NCBI RefSeq assembly: GCF_014083945.1
Contig: NZ_CP046444.1
Location: 2,232,001-2,296,000 of the forward strand
Reading direction: 5' to 3'
Source: Granulicella sp. 5B5
GTDB taxonomy: Bacteria; Acidobacteriota; Terriglobia; Terriglobales; Acidobacteriaceae
Length of the DNA: 64,000 nucleotides
Numbering within the stretch: position 1 is the first letter of the stretch; each line of letters opens with the position of its first letter. Shown here in pieces: positions 49,723 to 56,883 of this stretch. The notes under the pieces were generated by a model that saw only the letters and a list, made by a program, of their open reading frames with translations, searched no databases and was not told the DNA's origin. The position numbers and the translations under genes are program-made.

Positions 49723-50963
49723 GCGGCGAGGCGGGCGCTACGACTGACGGCGGGTTGTGGATCGGGCAGCTAGATGGGGCTGAACGCTCTGCGCTGGTGG
49801 GTACGTTTGCAGGGTGGATGCTCGATGGGCTGGACGTGATGATCTACAGCTTTGTGCTGCCGAGCCTGATTGCGTTGTGGCAGATGAGCAAGGGTGAAGC
49901 GGGGTTGCTGGGGACTTCGGCACTGCTGCTGTCGTCGCTGGGTGGATGGATTGCGGGGGTTGCGGCGGACAGGTTTGGGCGTGTGCGAGTGCTGCAACTG
50001 ACGATCGTCTGGTTTGCGGTGTTCACGTTTTTGAGTGGGTTTGCGCAGAACTTTGAGCAGCTGCTGGTGCTGCGTGGACTGCAGGGGCTGGGGTTTGGAG
50101 GTGAGTGGGCTGTTGGCTCCGTGCTGATCGGAGAAGCGATACGGCCGCGGTTTCGTGGGCGCGCGGTGGGAACGGTGCAGAGCGGATGGGCGATTGGGTG
50201 GGGCATTGCTGCGGCCTGCTACACGGTGTTCTTTGCGGTGATGCCGCAGCATATTGCGTGGCGTGCGATGTTCTGGGTCGGGCTGATTCCTGCGGGGCTG
50301 GCGGTGTATGTGCGCAGGCATGTGAAGGAGCCGGAGCTGCATGTGAAGACAATGGCCGCGCCGCGGAAGAGTGTGCTGGAGATCTTCTCGGTGGGGATGC
50401 TGCGGACGACGCTGCTGGCGTCGCTGGTGGCGTTGGGGGCTCAGGGTGGGTACTACGCGATCAATACGTGGCTGCCGCTGTACCTGAATGCGCGTGGGCT
50501 TTCGGTGACGCACACGGGGATGTACCTGATGGTGGTGATTGGCGGGTCGTTTGCCGGGTATCTGGTGAGCGCGCATCTGGCGGACAAGCTGGGTCGCAGA
50601 GTGACACTGGTGCTGTTTGCGGTGGGCGCGTTTGTGACGGTGTTCTTCTACACGGCGTTTCCGATTGGCGACCGCGCTACGCTGCTGCTCGGGTTTCCGC
50701 TGGGGTTCTTTCCTTCGGGGTCGTTCAGCCCGATGGGCGCGTTTTTTACGGAGCTGTTTCCGACTTCGGTGCGTGGATCGGGGCAGGGGTTTTCGTACAA
50801 CCTGGGGCGCGGCGTGGGAGCAGTGTTCCCGACGCTCGTGGGGTACTTCAGTGTGCGGATGAAGCTGGGGCACGCGATTGCGTTGTTCGCAATCTGCGCG
50901 TACCTGCTGATGATTGTGGGCGTGCTGCTGCTGCCGGAGACGCGCGAGGCGGAACTGCGTTAG
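49719..50963 (+). CDS. MFS transporter, SHS/AAHS-type
   Basis: A 414-residue, 12-helix major facilitator. TM1 carries GWMLDGLDVMIYSFVLPSLI, typical of the sialate/aromatic-acid H+ symporter branch; motif A-like ADRFGRVRVLQLTIVW follows, then LRGLQGLGFGGEWAVGSVL and RRFRGRAVG-like RPRFRGRAVGTVQSG. The GTG at 49719 overlaps the hyuB stop by four bases and has AAGGA upstream. It likely imports the substrate of HyuAB, for example 5-oxoproline, hydantoin or carbamoyl compounds (inference from operon). Its stop overlaps the stop of the convergent bufC-like gene: bases 50960-50963 (TTAG) serve TAG on one strand and TAA on the other. Confidence 0.92.
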   Translation: MSGEAGATTDGGLWIGQLDGAERSALVGTFAGWMLDGLDVMIYSFVLPSLIALWQMSKGEAGLLGTSALLLSSLGGWIAGVAADRFGRVRVLQLTIVWFAVFTFLSGFAQNFEQLLVLRGLQGLGFGGEWAVGSVLIGEAIRPRFRGRAVGTVQSGWAIGWGIAAACYTVFFAVMPQHIAWRAMFWVGLIPAGLAVYVRRHVKEPELHVKTMAAPRKSVLEIFSVGMLRTTLLASLVALGAQGGYYAINTWLPLYLNARGLSVTHTGMYLMVVIGGSFAGYLVSAHLADKLGRRVTLVLFAVGAFVTVFFYTAFPIGDRATLLLGFPLGFFPSGSFSPMGAFFTELFPTSVRGSGQGFSYNLGRGVGAVFPTLVGYFSVRMKLGHAIALFAICAYLLMIVGVLLLPETREAELR

Positions 50964-51844
50964 GCAGCCGGTTCGGGTTTGCAGAACCAGCCGAGCTCGG
51001 CGGCGTGCGCGAAGGTCTCCTGGATCTTTGCGGCCTGCTGCCCAGGAGTGAGGCGGCTGCGGTGGAAGGCTTTGCTGAGGGCCTCGCCGAGTGTTTCGCC
51101 ATCGCGAAGGGCAGTGAGGATGGCGCTGGCTTCGCGCTCGATGCGGCGGTAGTAGACGATGTCGTCGTAGCGATGCACGGCGAGGTAGACGGCTTCGCGC
51201 TTCATGGCGGGCAGGCGCATGCGCTTCACTTCTTTGCGTTGCATGGAGGCGTTGCTGGCGACCTCGGTTTCGGGCGCGTCGCGGCGCACGATGAGGACCA
51301 GCTCGTCGACTGGATAACGCAGCTGAAGCAGTTGCAGATGCGGCTGAAGCGTGAGGCGCGTGTCAGGGCCGATGGCGTGCAGGTCTTCGGCGGTGAGCGG
51401 CGGGTGGCGAAGGCTGTCGAAGGCTTCGACGTAGGCCCACTCGAGCGCGGTGACATCGAGGGAGAGCTGGTGACGGCGACCGGTGAACTCGGGGTGCTCG
51501 CGCAGCCAGGTGGGCAGCTTCTTGCCAATGTCGCGGAGCGTCCACGAGGTGGATGGGTTCTCGCGGAGGTAGGCGAGGACGAGCGCGTCGAACTTCTTTT
51601 CGCCGAGAAGAGCGTTGAGCGCGGGGAAGTCTTCAGAGACTGCCTCGATAACACGGAACCAGTACTGACGGTTGTAGATCTCGAGGCGCTCGAAGGAGCT
51701 GAGGCGATCGTTGGGCTTGATGTAGCTGTCGGCGATCCGGTCGAGCGAGGTGCCGTCTTCGGTGGTCTGCTGCATGTCGAAGTCGTCGGTCAGGGGACGG
51801 CGAACGTCCTCGGACATGCGGCGCTGCAGTTCGAGGAGCGTCAT
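50960..51844 (-). CDS. DUF2063 partner protein of MNIO enzyme (BufC/HvfC-like)
   Basis: A 294-residue protein of the HvfC/BufC family, which carries the DUF2063 'putative DNA-binding' N-terminal domain. Visible signatures: LLELQRRMSEDVRRPL, SSFERLEIYNRQYWFRVIEA, VSEDFPALNALLGEKKFDAL, AYLRENPSTSWTLRDIGKKL, and the C-terminal ILTALRDGETLGEALSKAF. In bufferin and related RiPP systems this partner binds the precursor leader or the MNIO enzyme and is required for modification (established for some members). Its start overlaps the stop of the DUF692 gene by four bases (ATGA). Cytosolic. The end overlaps the transporter gene stop on the other strand. Confidence 0.92.
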   Translation of the reverse strand: MTLLELQRRMSEDVRRPLTDDFDMQQTTEDGTSLDRIADSYIKPNDRLSSFERLEIYNRQYWFRVIEAVSEDFPALNALLGEKKFDALVLAYLRENPSTSWTLRDIGKKLPTWLREHPEFTGRRHQLSLDVTALEWAYVEAFDSLRHPPLTAEDLHAIGPDTRLTLQPHLQLLQLRYPVDELVLIVRRDAPETEVASNASMQRKEVKRMRLPAMKREAVYLAVHRYDDIVYYRRIEREASAILTALRDGETLGEALSKAFHRSRLTPGQQAAKIQETFAHAAELGWFCKPEPAA

Positions 51845-52731
51845 GCGAGGACCTCTTCGGGCTGAGCTGCTGCGACCTTCTCGGCAGCGAGTTTTTCGGC
51901 TGCTGCTTTGAGGTACTTGTTGGCCTTGAGGGCCTCGTTGTGGACTTCGTCGAAGCTGGGGATGTTGTCGTCCCATTCGAGCAGGGTGGCGGTGGGGCCG
52001 ATGCGGTCGATGGCGCGGGCGTAGAGGGCCCAGACGGGGTCGAGGACGGGGTGGTCGTGCGTGTCGAGGATGTACTTCTCGAACTTGGAGTGGCCGGCGA
52101 TGTGGATCTGGGCTACGCGGTCGGCGGGGACGGCGTCGACGTAGACGGCGGGATCGAAGCCGTGGTTCTGCGAGGAGACGTAGATGTTGTTGACGTCGAG
52201 GAGGATGCCGCAGTCGGCGGCGTGGACGACCTCGTTGAGGAACTCCCACTCAGTCATTTCGGACTCGTGGTACTCGGCGTAGCTGGAGACGTTCTCGACG
52301 GCTATGGGGATTTCGAGGGTGTCCTGCACCTGGCGGATGCGCTCGGCGGTGGTGCGGACGGCCTCGAAGGTGTAGGGCAGCGGCAGGAGGTCGTGGGTGT
52401 AGCGGCCGTCGACGGAGCCCCAGCAGAGATGGTCAGAGAGCCAGGGGGTCTTGGTGCGGCGGGTGAGGTCCTTGATGCGGCGGAGATGGTCGCGGTTGAG
52501 CTCCTGCGCGGAGCCGAAGTACATGGAGACGCCGTGCTGCACGACGCGGTACTGATCGAGAATCTGGTCGAGGAGGCGAAGCGGACGGCCGTCGTCGATC
52601 ATGTAGTTCTCGGAGATGATCTCGAACCAGTCGACGACAGGCTTTTTGGAGAAGATGTGATCGTAGTGCGGGACGCGGAGCCCGATGCCGACACCGTAGT
52701 CGGTGAAGTTGTTAAAGCGATTGGCGGGCAT
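51841..52731 (-). CDS. MNIO/DUF692 multinuclear iron oxidase (BufB/HvfB-like)
   Basis: A 296-residue TIM-barrel enzyme of the DUF692 (MNIO) family, relatives of MbnB and BufB. Motifs: GVGIGLRVPHYDHIF, WFEIISENYM, HGVSMYFGSAQELN, PWLSDHLCWGSVDGRYTHDL, IAVENVSSYAEYHESEMTEW, GILLDVNNIYVSSQNHGFD and VAQIHIAGHSKFE, which supply the His/Asp/Glu ligands of the iron cluster. MNIO enzymes modify peptide cysteines oxidatively (oxazolone/thioamide in methanobactin, thiooxazole in bufferins). Here the substrate should be the Cys-rich precursor encoded 82 bp upstream. GGAG lies five bases before the ATG at 52731; a longer start at 52800 is less likely. Order precursor, enzyme, partner is the standard one. 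Confidence 0.94.
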   Translation of the reverse strand: MPANRFNNFTDYGVGIGLRVPHYDHIFSKKPVVDWFEIISENYMIDDGRPLRLLDQILDQYRVVQHGVSMYFGSAQELNRDHLRRIKDLTRRTKTPWLSDHLCWGSVDGRYTHDLLPLPYTFEAVRTTAERIRQVQDTLEIPIAVENVSSYAEYHESEMTEWEFLNEVVHAADCGILLDVNNIYVSSQNHGFDPAVYVDAVPADRVAQIHIAGHSKFEKYILDTHDHPVLDPVWALYARAIDRIGPTATLLEWDDNIPSFDEVHNEALKANKYLKAAAEKLAAEKVAAAQPEEVLA

Positions 52732-52812
52732 GGCATCTCCGTAGGCAGGGGAGGGAAACAGGGAGATTGCTGGAGGCTTGAGACGTTCCCAAGCCTCCAA
52801 CAGAGTAGCTTG

Positions 52813-53103
52813 TTAGACGGTCTTGGAGGGCTTGGAACCGTCGGTGGCGCAACCGCCCTTGCCCTTGCAGGAGTTCTTGCCGGGGTGCTTGCCGCCGCCC
52901 TGACCCTTACAGTCGTTCTTGCCCTTGCAGGAGTGCTTGGGAAGGTTGGTGGTGTCCTGGTGGACGAGTACCACGCCGGCGGCCGGCGCGTTGTTGCTGG
53001 CGGAGGTGTTGGCAGTCTGCGCGTGGGCAGCAGCGGCGGTACCACCGAGCAGGCCGGTTACAGCAGCGGCCAGAGCATACGACATTACGGAGCTGGTCTT
53101 CAT
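52813..53103 (-). CDS. Bufferin-like RiPP precursor with signal peptide and two C-x5-C units
   Basis: A 96-residue precursor. Residues 1-28 are a Sec signal peptide (MSYALAAAVTGLLGGTAAAA, cleavage near AHA-Q). After a spacer rich in Ala, Asn and Thr comes the core with four cysteines at 59, 65, 79 and 85: HSCKGKNDCKG and KNSCKGKGGCA. The two C-x5-C units share SCKGK and are separated by a Gly/Lys/His loop (QGGGKHPG). Lys and Gly make up most of the core. This matches precursors of the DUF692 systems (BufA/HvfA/GigA group), which are modified on Cys in the cytosol, exported, and bind copper. AGGA lies seven bases before the ATG. The operon reads precursor, enzyme, partner. Confidence 0.88.
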   Translation of the reverse strand: MKTSSVMSYALAAAVTGLLGGTAAAAHAQTANTSASNNAPAAGVVLVHQDTTNLPKHSCKGKNDCKGQGGGKHPGKNSCKGKGGCATDGSKPSKTV

Positions 53104-53247
53104 GGAAGTGTCCTTTTCCTTAGGTTGGGCCAGGCGCTGGCCTGGGCGTTGGCGTGGAGACCTTCTCAGCGATGCGAGAGGCGGGTACTCTGTTGTGGCC
53201 CGAAGGAGGAGCCTGGAAGAGCGCTCTCTTTCATCCGTTGCCGCGTG

Positions 53248-53276
53248 TTTGAGGCACGAACTTGGGATTGGTTACA
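53248..53276 (-). promoter_or_regulatory. Candidate ECF promoter of the bufferin-like operon
   Basis: On the minus strand TGTAACC (53276-53270) and TCAAA (53252-53248) are 17 bases apart. The same arrangement, TGTAACT-N17-TCTAA, occurs on the plus strand at 53374-53402. GTAACC-type -35 elements are used by the SigF-type ECF factor controlling similar genes in Caulobacter (recalled). It implies a leader of about 135 nt before the precursor start. Confidence 0.5.
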
Positions 53277-53373
53277 GCGGTCCGCTACAGCCAGAGAGAA
53301 CAACCTGCGGGGAATTGTAGTCCGCAGCAGGAAATGTATCTACCGGGATACGTGGCGGATGGCGGATCGGATT

Positions 53374-53402
53374 TGTAACTTATCAGTGGATGACTGTTCT
53401 AA
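53374..53402 (+). promoter_or_regulatory. Candidate ECF promoter of the doxX-sigma-antisigma operon
   Basis: TGTAACT (53374-53380) and TCTAA (53398-53402) with 17 bases between. It is the mirror of the element serving the bufferin-like operon, 98 bp away on the other strand. It lies about 70 bp before the chosen DoxX start. Confidence 0.45.
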
Positions 53403-53473
53403 TCCAGTGAGCCGGCATAGAGATGAGCTATCCCGCGACAGCTCAACCGTTTAGGAAGATGGAGCGAAGATCC

Positions 53474-53941
53474 ATGCTGAAGAGTGTGATGGCGCTGTAT
53501 GAACGCGTCGTGAAGGGACTGAACCTGCTGCAGTCGCCGATGCTGCTGGTGGTGCGGCTGTACTGGGGGTTCCAGCTGGCGCAGAACGGCTGGGGCAAGC
53601 TGCATCATCTGAGCCGGATCACGGACTACTTTCAGAGTCTGAATATCCCGTTTCCGGGGATCAACGCACCGTTCGTCTCCGGGCTGGAGCTGGTGGGCGG
53701 CATACTGCTGATGCTGGGGCTGGGCTCACGTCCGATTGCGCTGCTGATCGCGGGTGACATGCTGGTGGCGTACTACGCGGCCGACCATGATGCGCTGGTG
53801 TCGGTGTTCTCGGACCCGGGCAAATTCTATGTGGCTGATCCATACACGTTCCTGTTTGCTGCCCTGATGGTGCTGATCTTTGGCGCTGGCTACCTGTCGC
53901 TGGATGCGTTGATCGCCAAGAAGCTGAAGGAGCGCGTGTAG
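53474..53941 (+). CDS. DoxX-family membrane protein
   Basis: A protein of about 155 residues with four helices. DoxX signatures: LLVVRLYWGFQLAQNGWGKL, LNIPFPGINAPFVSGLELVG, GGILLMLGLGSRPIALLIAG and TFLFAALMVLIFGAGYLSLD. DoxX-like proteins (BufD/GigT) accompany DUF692 systems and may pass electrons or help metal stress tolerance at the membrane; mechanism is unknown. I prefer the ATG at 53474 because GGAG precedes it at 53461-53464 and homologues begin MLKSVMALYERVV-like. ATG codons at 53423 and 53459 are in frame. It is separated by 5 bp from the sigma-factor gene, so these form one operon. Confidence 0.9.
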   Translation: MLKSVMALYERVVKGLNLLQSPMLLVVRLYWGFQLAQNGWGKLHHLSRITDYFQSLNIPFPGINAPFVSGLELVGGILLMLGLGSRPIALLIAGDMLVAYYAADHDALVSVFSDPGKFYVADPYTFLFAALMVLIFGAGYLSLDALIAKKLKERV

Positions 53942-53946
53942 ACGCG

Positions 53947-54588
53947 ATGGATGTGCAGCGTGGCAGCCGCGGTGGCGACAGGGATGAGGCAACGATGATT
54001 GCCTCGATCCTGGCGGGCGAGACACAGCTCTACCATGAGCTGATTCGCCCGCATGAGCGCAGCGTGTACATGATGGCGTTGTCGTACATGAAGAACGAGG
54101 CCGATGCGGAGGACGTGGCGCAGGAGGCGTTCCTGAAGGCGTTTCGAGCGTTGGCGAACTTTCGCGCGGAGGCGAAGTTCGGAACCTGGTTGATCAGCAT
54201 CACGTTGAATGAGGCGCGCAACAGGCTGCGGCGGAAGGCGGCCGTCCCCATGGAGTCGCTGGATGTGCCAGACGACGAGCCGGGAGCGGTGTCGCCGGCG
54301 CTGTTGCGGGACTGGCGCGAGGTGCCGAGCGAGGCGCTGGAGCGCGGTGAGGTGCGGAGCCTGATTGCCAGCGCGGTTGAGGCGCTGCCGGAGATCTATC
54401 GCTGCGTGTTCGTGCTGCGCGATATGGAAGAGATGAGCGTGAACGAGACGGCCGAGGCGCTCTCGCTGAGCGTGCCGGCGGTGAAGGTGCGGCTGCACCG
54501 GGCAAGGATGATGCTGCAGAAGCAGCTAGCTCCGCAGCTGCGCGCAGTTGTGCCCGCGGAGAAGAAACGGAGGTGGTTTCCATGGTGA
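53947..54588 (+). CDS. ECF-family RNA polymerase sigma factor
   Basis: A 213-residue ECF sigma factor. Region 2 is visible as IRPHERSVYMMALSYMKNEA and DAEDVAQEAFLKAFRALANF, then FGTWLISITLNEARNRLRRK. A linker rich in Pro/Asp/Glu follows, and region 4 is ALPEIYRCVFVLRDMEEMSV with ETAEALSLSVPAVKVRLHRA. It should recognise the paired promoters flanking the divergent gap (inference). The 3' end overlaps the anti-sigma gene start, the standard sigma/anti-sigma arrangement. The start at 53947 is uncertain; ATG at 53995 is possible. Regulon likely includes its own operon and the precursor operon. Confidence 0.95.
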   Translation: MDVQRGSRGGDRDEATMIASILAGETQLYHELIRPHERSVYMMALSYMKNEADAEDVAQEAFLKAFRALANFRAEAKFGTWLISITLNEARNRLRRKAAVPMESLDVPDDEPGAVSPALLRDWREVPSEALERGEVRSLIASAVEALPEIYRCVFVLRDMEEMSVNETAEALSLSVPAVKVRLHRARMMLQKQLAPQLRAVVPAEKKRRWFPW

Positions 54589-54848
54589 TCGAGTGCAAGC
54601 ATGTGTGGAACCACATCTCGGGTTATCTGGATGGAACGCTGACCGCTGAGGAGCAGGTGATGATTCAAACGCACCTGGAACACTGCGAGATCTGCTCGGC
54701 GATTCTGGACTCGGCGCGCAACATCCTGGTGCTGACGGCGGATGACCGGGTGTTCGAGCTGCCGGTAGGGTTCAGCGAGCGGCTGCATGCGCGGCTGGCA
54801 GCGGAGCTGGGGACGGTCGCGGGGGATACCCCCCCCTCCCCTATGTAG
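54582..54848 (+). CDS. Zinc-finger anti-sigma factor (ZAS type)
   Basis: An 88-residue protein. The ZAS motif H-x3-C-x2-C is present in MIQTHLEHCEICSAILDSAR, preceded by CKHVWNHISGYLDGTLTAEE. It has no membrane helix, so it is a soluble cytosolic anti-sigma. The ATG at 54582 overlaps the sigma-factor stop (ATGGTGA). Zinc release by oxidation or metal displacement usually frees the sigma factor; copper or gold would be natural triggers for a bufferin locus (inference). The C-terminus (GDTPPSPM) runs into a C-rich tract. A strong hairpin follows. Confidence 0.93.
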   Translation: MVIECKHVWNHISGYLDGTLTAEEQVMIQTHLEHCEICSAILDSARNILVLTADDRVFELPVGFSERLHARLAAELGTVAGDTPPSPM

Positions 54849-56484: not shown

Positions 56485-56883
56485 TTATTGCTTTTCGAAG
56501 GCCAGTGAGGCGGAGTTGATGCAGAAGCGCTGACCGCCTTCGGCCTTAGGGCCGTCGGGGAAGACGTGGCCGAGGTGGCCGCCGCACTTGGCGCAGGTGA
56601 CCTCGACGCGCTTCATGCCGAAGGCGTTGTCTTCGTGGAGCTCGACGGCGTCCGGGGTGAGGGGCTCGAAGAAGCTGGGCCAGCCGGAGCCGGACTCGAA
56701 CTTGGTGCCGGACTTGAAGAGCGGAGCGTTGCAGGCGGCGCAGTGGTACATGCCGTCGTCGTGGTTGTTGACGAGGGCGCCGGTGAAGGGGCGCTCGGTG
56801 CCCTTCTCGCGGAGGATGTGGTACTGCTCGGGGGTGAGCTCGGCGCGCCACTCGGCGTCGGTTTTCTGGAGTTTTTCGGGCAT
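56485..56883 (-). CDS. msrB: Peptide-methionine (R)-S-oxide reductase
   Basis: A 132-residue MsrB. Motifs: [20 protein letters not shown] with CxxC zinc knuckles (CAAC, CAKC), [14 protein letters not shown], and the active-site Cys in [17 protein letters not shown]. It reduces R-methionine sulfoxide in proteins with thioredoxin. AAAGGAG precedes the ATG. It lies alone, convergent to rpmB. Confidence 0.96.

Follow-up and report, generated by a model that had tools for sequence, protein, structure and literature searches.

The 64,000-nucleotide stretch of the Granulicella sp. 5B5 chromosome analyzed in this study (contig NZ_CP046444.1, positions 2,232,001 to 2,296,000, forward strand; hereafter, the window) probably carries a bufferin-type gene cluster of the Cys-Lys captophorin class, with a reduced, four-cysteine precursor peptide and its own extracytoplasmic function (ECF) sigma factor switch. 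A preliminary description of this DNA had proposed a bufferin-like locus for a ribosomally synthesized and post-translationally modified peptide (RiPP), and we found this to be correct: the multinuclear non-heme iron-dependent oxidative enzyme (MNIO) passes the BufB model, the fold predicted for its partner fits MNIO partners, and a cysteine-bearing precursor adjoins them. All six genes lie where they had been placed, with Pfam matches for every product except the precursor. The order bufA-bufB-bufC runs on the minus strand from 53103 to 50960, and the genes for DoxX, the ECF sigma factor and a small zinc-finger anti-sigma factor follow one another on the plus strand, beginning near 53474 and ending at 54848. 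The features of the locus are as follows.

50960..51844, minus strand: bufC-like partner, 294 amino acids (aa), with a DUF2063 domain and a C-terminal domain of the RiPP recognition (RRE) type (PF09836, 66.9 bits; cut-off 27.2)
51841..52731, minus strand: bufB-like MNIO (DUF692), 296 aa (PF05114, 363.3 bits)
52771..52799, minus strand: perfect 10-bp hairpin between the precursor and MNIO genes (stem search)
52813..53103, minus strand: bufA-like precursor, 96 aa, with a signal-peptide-like N-terminus and Cys59/65/79/85 (open reading frame (ORF) and relatives)
53248..53276, minus strand: ECF-type promoter motif of the precursor operon, TGTAACC-N16-CTCAAA, one of 3 genome-wide sites
53374..53402, plus strand: ECF-type promoter motif of the DoxX-sigma-anti-sigma operon, TGTAACT-N16-TTCTAA, one of 3 genome-wide sites
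53474..53941, plus strand: DoxX-family membrane protein; the frame opens at 53423 (PF07681, 64.8 bits)
53947..54588, plus strand: ECF sigma factor, 213 aa (PF04542, PF08281)
54582..54848, plus strand: soluble zinc-binding anti-sigma factor (ZAS; PF13490, zf-HC2, 44.5 bits)

The enzyme scored 352.8 bits on the BufB equivalog model NF050167 (MNIO_BufB; cut-off 310) and stayed below the cut-offs of the HvfB, ApyH, ChrH and MbnB models; membership of the methanobactin group was rejected on these profile scores. In an alignment with 3bww, the window enzyme has EWDD in place of ERDF, that is, an Asp where EGKCG-type enzymes have Phe, and the site corresponding to FonB-Phe250 is Asp in 154 of the 156 MNIOs for which a precursor was found. 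According to the text of PMC13097082, this Phe-to-Asp change marks the enzymes of the Cys-Lys group, and in a model the Asp contacts the Lys that follows the Cys; the window enzyme was therefore counted as a Cys-Lys type. Like the Cys-Lys captophorin enzymes, it has no Arg at the Arg16 site (GLRV in the window), nor does any of the 156 MNIOs. The PF05114 and PF09836 matches bear out the earlier claim of an MNIO with a DUF2063 partner, the start of the partner gene overlapping the stop of the MNIO gene by 4 bases. A structure model of the partner built from 31 sequences (pLDDT 88.3) gave three fold matches at E < 0.001, namely 8hi7_A and 8hci_A (TglHI) and 3dee (NGO1945), where chain A was taken as TglI because chain D of 8hci is named as a DUF692 protein. 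The next sensible fold matches were RRE domains and were not significant; a search of PDB sequences with the partner returned nothing useful. The modeled succession of a DUF2063 domain and an RRE fold suggests a PME type 1 partner.

The precursor has the exported look and the cysteines that had been noted for it. By eye, its N-terminus shows a charged part, a hydrophobic part and an AHA-Q part, and Cys59, 65, 79 and 85 form C-x5-C twice. Lys follows three of the four cysteines (59, 65 and 79), as in the multiple Cys-Lys motifs of Cys-Lys captophorins, and Ala follows Cys85. As for BufA2, the gene stands directly upstream of the MNIO and PME1 genes. Membership of the Buf1/DUF2282 group was rejected since PF10048 gave no match to the precursor at E ≤ 1, and that of the EGKCG/oxazolin group since there are no EGKCG repeats. 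Matches to Antimicrobial18 (E 0.087) and DUF6520 (E 0.15) were below the cut-offs and were taken as chance.

Relationship to BufA2 emerged stepwise. On the BufA2 model NF050166, four canonical precursors from plasmids scored 88.5-100.1 bits, one six-Cys acidobacterial precursor 39.5 bits, and two four-Cys precursors 16.6 and 20.2 bits, the former being that of the window. Profile-profile comparison joined the four-Cys to the six-Cys acidobacterial precursors at E 1.3e-33 and the latter to canonical BufA2 (from plasmids of Thiothrix, Pseudomonas (two) and Asticcacaulis) at E 1.4e-12, with a weaker direct link of the four-Cys form to canonical BufA2 at E 4.9e-8; as these are single comparisons of low-complexity peptides, the argument is carried by the stepwise chain and the gene order. 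The first five cysteines have the same spacing in canonical BufA2 and in the six-Cys acidobacterial precursors, whose usual core is C-x5-C-x5-C-x6-C-x5-C-x5-C. Compared with this core, the four-Cys form has Gly for the third Cys and has lost the fourth through a five-residue deletion, and the loop before its last Cys has 5 residues versus 12-13 in seven canonical BufA2 precursors. In all 19 distinct cores of the GGG type, the four-Cys type to which most four-Cys precursors belong, Lys follows the first three cysteines and Ala the last, and among 50 six-Cys cores just 2 have Lys after the last Cys. Because the profiles lead from four-Cys through six-Cys to canonical BufA2, the core, judged from its sequence, appears to be the known Cys-Lys (BufA2-like) type minus its middle two cysteines and not a new core chemistry. 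The preliminary description had thus rightly set the KGK-rich core apart from the EGKCG type, and its suggestion of a distinct subtype holds to the extent of a reduced BufA2-like group that lost two cysteines and shortened its last loop; of the family comparisons that it had called for, those by the BufA2 model, PF10048 and EGKCG repeats gave no membership, and the profiles gave kinship to BufA2 by way of the six-Cys relatives. The Cys-Lys rule predicts modification of Cys59, 65 and 79, and a free thiol may persist at Cys85.

The cluster is not a chance assembly, since an MNIO match at E ≤ 1e-20 was present in 115 of 300 genomes of the same family, a few of the matches being partial or distant. 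The host genome itself (3.93 Mb, single contig) has one PF05114 match, and the nearest named relatives of this enzyme, from an uncultured Acidobacteriaceae bacterium (96%) and Granulicella paludicola (91%), agree with the acidobacterial host that had been inferred before the source of the DNA was given. We compared 161 loci: 80 from same-family genomes, for which long flanks were taken at 80 of the 120-odd MNIO places found, 80 from named contigs, and the window, some organisms being present twice. To find precursors, tblastn was run first with a single known precursor as query and later with three, a search by which very different precursors would be missed. The cores comprised 91 six-Cys, 50 four-Cys GGG, 7 four-Cys GAD, 5 five-Cys and 3 odd ones, the last being the 3 of 156 loci with a precursor match that did not fit the core classes; the outer four cysteines were never lost, which is partly built in, as the classification patterns require the outer cysteines. 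A precursor of a recognized kind and a downstream partner gene occurred in 153 of the 161 loci, the starts of precursor and MNIO lying no more than about 520 bases apart in 147 of these. The remaining eight were three broken or odd reads and five loci without a precursor (two at contig ends, two beside distant MNIOs and one unexplained). In one locus (L100), a 71% identical MNIO stands with a partner, DoxX, ECF and ZAS and no recognizable precursor, and may hold a very different one.

A tree was built from 126 distinct MNIO sequences, after exclusion of one short row and of the eight loci whose core could not be used. The GGG form accompanies 39 of the 126, and 37 of these 39 make up one branch (SH-aLRT 97). 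The free quick tree needed six changes of core type. When all 39 rows were held as one clade, the likelihood was higher (p-AU 0.758 in the approximately unbiased (AU) test), so that a single origin of the GGG type is acceptable. GAD-type four-Cys and five-Cys forms fell elsewhere, one GAD pair having a six-Cys sister (support 99), and a single clade of all four-Cys forms was not rejected by the AU test (p 0.122). Since neither constraint was rejected, we claim no number of independent cysteine losses. The four-Cys form occurs in several genera, and both core forms were found within one genome in Edaphobacter aggregans (loci L143 and L162) and in a second genome, G183 (L033 and L097). Across the phylum, the BufA2 model matched in 44 of 396 genomes at E 0.01 and exceeded its cut-off in 11; none of these 11 belongs to the family of the window, and the genome of the window gave no match to the model.

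We then consider the genes on the opposite strand. The preliminary description had the DoxX, ECF and anti-sigma genes and their strand right; they appear to be more than a neighbor, as a promoter motif is common to both operons and an ECF gene lies near 95 of the 153 classified loci (identified with tblastn in the flanks that were fetched; a few may be unrelated sigma factors, e.g., the one of 27% identity in L105). From the shared motif and this linkage in relatives, the divergent operon very probably belongs to the cluster. Gene boundaries needed adjustment at two places: by eye against relatives, the DoxX start is likelier at ATG 53474 than at 53423, and the anti-sigma gene starts at ATG 54582 (88 aa) or GTG 54573 (91 aa). 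Anti-sigma factors of this kind are termed ZAS, and the HX3CX2C motif that marks them was found in all 73 distinct homologues. An N-terminal Cys, which we take to correspond to RsrA Cys11, was present in 69 of the 73 by pattern, and in the others inspected the Cys is likewise present but the Trp is not. The highest 19-residue hydropathy mean among the 73 was 1.46, which does not suggest a membrane protein of the NrsF/DUF1109 kind. Of the specific models, RsrA (TIGR03988) scored best, at 33.3 bits and below its cut-off of 62.5. The window protein thus resembles RsrA-type anti-sigma factors, being small and soluble with HX3CX2C and an N-terminal Cys, and differs from them in its score below the cut-off, its partner sigma factor and its targets.

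The pattern TGTAACY-N15-17-YTCNAA occurs at only three sites in the 3.93 Mb genome, and two of them are the promoters listed above, each facing its own operon. An enumeration of two-part words found GTAAC and a TCAA-like word, separated by a constant distance, in as many as 16 of the 33 distinct upstream stretches of four-Cys precursors, versus at most 3 in three shuffles; here, as for the hairpins described below, the shuffles keep single-base content only, and the promoter counts were made on upstream stretches made distinct at 80%. The shorter form TGTAACY-N15-17-YTCNA preceded 24 of 27 distinct divergent DoxX genes and 21 of 33 GGG-type precursors, against an expectation, taken from the remaining parts of the loci, of 0.0023 per 300 bases. 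Furthermore, among distinct loci, TGTAAC precedes the precursor in 57 of the 71 that have a linked ECF gene versus 16 of the 48 that lack one (Fisher p 3.5e-7). In ten chosen four-Cys relatives, 17 of 47 genome-wide sites stood, by our own reading, before genes of the cluster (16 before precursor or DoxX genes, one before an AhpC/TSA gene). The other 30 were close in number to the 37 given by a reversed control pattern, which indicates that the motif is concentrated at the cluster and shows no wider regulon; a looser pattern, tried in looking for such a regulon, gave 9 sites versus 5 for the control. The third site in the host genome, 336 bases upstream of an mnmE-like gene (named by eye), may be chance because the reversed control also gave one match. 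In Granulicella sp. L46, a strict motif site (L144:1448-1476) lies about 120 bases before an ORF of 98 aa without a Pfam match.

Several observations weigh against the proposed bufferin-type cluster with its own switch. The motif was derived from the same loci, among them the ten relatives, and its pattern was broadened once both promoters had been seen, so that the genome-wide counts show rarity and are not an independent test; its shorter form precedes only 8 of 76 six-Cys precursors and none of 10 five-Cys and GAD precursors. The 16.6 bits of the precursor fall far short of the BufA2 cut-off of 60, and its four cysteines differ from the 6 or 12 conserved ones by which the text of PMC12452194 describes Buf2. 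Its structure model was disordered and uninformative (pLDDT 48.5). The partner scored 44.1 bits on the HvfC model (cut-off 142), and DoxX 54.3 bits on the HvfX model NF050144 (cut-off 80). Among the genomes of the same genus listed, only 8 of 20, that of the window included, have the MNIO. No copper gene was found among the six flanking ORFs scanned (hydantoinase B, MFS transporter, one without a match, ribosomal L28, SelR (MsrB) and L-PSP), unlike in two plasmid BufA2 loci, and the idea of a copper island was rejected on this basis. A response to copper or another thiophilic metal, as the preliminary description had it, may apply to this cluster; it cannot be assumed for copper, since the texts of PMC12538549 and PMC3511200 describe, respectively, a Microbulbifer EGKCG-type cluster that is not copper-induced and a Caulobacter sigma-F that is tied to chromium and cadmium.

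For the modification, export and metal binding of the peptide, the inducing signal and the choice of modified cysteines, we infer the following scheme. A stress that most likely comes from an oxidant or from a thiophilic metal, copper for instance, would strike the thiols of the ZAS protein and release the ECF sigma factor, which would drive both divergent promoters, so that precursor, MNIO and partner would be made together with DoxX and more sigma factor. The DUF2063/RRE partner would present the precursor to the MNIO, and cysteines in Cys-Lys, namely Cys59, 65 and 79, would be oxidized to 5-thiooxazoles before Sec export, while Cys85, followed by Ala, may be left free. The exported peptide would then bind excess metal in the periplasm. 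A periplasmic metal buffer is the most likely product because, according to the text of PMC13097082, all characterized MNIO/PME1 products are thiooxazole peptides that generally bind copper. As a tentative extension, which we hold to be possible and short of probable, the locus may represent a minimal bufferin, in which the central Cys pair of a six-Cys ancestor was lost and the outer C-x5-C pairs were kept, giving a new, smaller metal site made of three modifiable Cys-Lys sites and a free C-terminal thiol, and in which a thiol-sensing ZAS/ECF switch replaced NrsF and set a different signal for the same chemistry.

An alternative, clearly less probable than the main reading, is that the cluster answers mainly thiol or oxidant stress, the ZAS protein sensing oxidation and the peptide and DoxX forming a periplasmic thiol-redox system. 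The conserved N-terminal Cys and HX3CX2C of the anti-sigma factor are in line with this, as is RsrA being its best specific model, though below the cut-off. A DUF1223 gene is present in the flanks of 20 of the 50 GGG-type loci (counted as loci, not distinct organisms) and one for AhpC/TSA in the flanks of 13, mostly between DoxX and precursor (15 of 20 and 8 of 13, respectively); one relative (G278) has a strict motif site before its AhpC/TSA gene; and a gene for a SelR-domain (MsrB-type) methionine sulfoxide reductase (56488-56883, minus strand) lies 1.6 kb past the anti-sigma gene of the window. Given the ZAS protein and these neighbors, the signal may be thiol or oxidant stress. However, the window cluster has neither DUF1223 nor AhpC/TSA neighbors, the DUF1223 gene of the host lies elsewhere with no TGTAAC in the surrounding 3.6 kb, the motif was found at none of the 20 DUF1223 starts in GGG-type loci, and the copper-binding products of PMC13097082 speak for a metal. 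DUF1223, with its SEGCSSCPPAD motif (in L033, L038, L049 and others), and AhpC/TSA look like extracytoplasmic thiol proteins.

It is improbable that the four-Cys precursor is decaying or left unmodified, a relic whose two-Cys loss marks lost function. The third and fourth cysteines are indeed gone, the score lies far under the BufA2 model, and 12 of the 20 listed genomes of the genus lack the cluster; against this, all four cysteines and most of the core are invariant in 17 aligned four-Cys precursors in which the linker varies, the enzyme and partner genes have open reading frames in the window and are conserved among relatives, and the form spans several genera. That the DoxX/ECF/ZAS operon is an unrelated neighbor, as its opposite strand and the lack of an ECF gene in the fetched flanks of 58 of 153 loci might suggest (at least 3 kb of flank was available on each side in 41 of the 48 distinct loci of this kind), is very improbable given the common promoter motif and the 27 six-Cys loci in which DoxX and ECF both lie downstream on the same strand.

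Taken together, these results indicate that the locus is a reduced form of an already known bufferin type with a different regulator. It shares with Buf2/BufA2 (NF050166; as described in the text of PMC12452194) the bufABC order, a PME type 1 partner, a closely related MNIO and the Cys-Lys motifs, and differs in having four cysteines instead of six, with the central pair lost and the last loop shortened, and in its linked ECF and ZAS genes; the same text reports sigma factors with Buf1 and not with Buf2 clusters. An Asticcacaulis plasmid (L215:1-5753) bears divergent Buf1 and Buf2 operons, with a sigma factor gene and two NrsF genes coming after the Buf2 operon, and is thus an exception to that statement. 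In Caulobacter, as the text of PMC3511200 has it, sigma-F drives bufferin operons made of a precursor (DUF2282), DUF692, DUF2063 and DoxX in response to chromium and cadmium stress, from the motif GTAACC-N16-CGAA. Its -35 element and 16-base spacer are nearly the same as in the window; in contrast, the -10 element is CGAA there and YTCNAA here, and its anti-sigma factor is a six-helix DUF1109 membrane protein (NrsF) whereas that of the window is a soluble zinc-finger protein. The EGKCG captophorins fontiphorin, oxazolin and gonophorin, as presented in PMC13097082, likewise combine an MNIO, a DUF2063/RRE partner and a Cys-rich precursor, often with a linked DoxX, but have Lys-Cys, the enzyme Phe and EGKCG repeats where the window has Cys-Lys, Asp and no EGKCG.

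According to the text of PMC12452194, the modifications of Buf2-type bufferins are so far known only by a loss of mass for each Cys and by a band at 305 nm. Two questions become testable with the acidobacterial loci: which Buf2-type cysteines are modified, and what induces Buf2-type peptides. Nature here provides a mutation series, with four-, five- and six-Cys forms served by closely related enzymes; it predicts that the outer C-x5-C pairs matter and a mass-spectrometry contrast of about 12 Da versus 16 Da loss, and the cluster-specific ECF/ZAS switch with its defined motif makes the inducing signal accessible to experiment. Buf2 clusters of uncultured Antarctic soil bacteria are cited in the same paper, and Acidobacteria are not named in the main texts of two landscape papers, whose supplementary tables may list four-Cys acidobacterial precursors.

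Some further features of the relatives were observed. A perfect stem of at least 8 bp was found in the gap between the precursor and MNIO genes in 49 of 114 distinct relatives and in none of the 114 after one mononucleotide shuffle each. The stems differ in sequence among relatives, and the hairpin perhaps keeps the level of precursor above that of enzyme. Two of the plasmid BufA2 clusters (L213 and L214) have as neighbors a heavy-metal P-type ATPase gene, or a copper multicopper oxidase gene and a PtrA-like gene. Three contigs of metagenome-assembled genomes labeled as kin of Verrucomicrobiota (L196, L200 and L210) carry MNIOs that are 78-80% identical, together with six-Cys precursors, suggesting either gene transfer or wrong binning.

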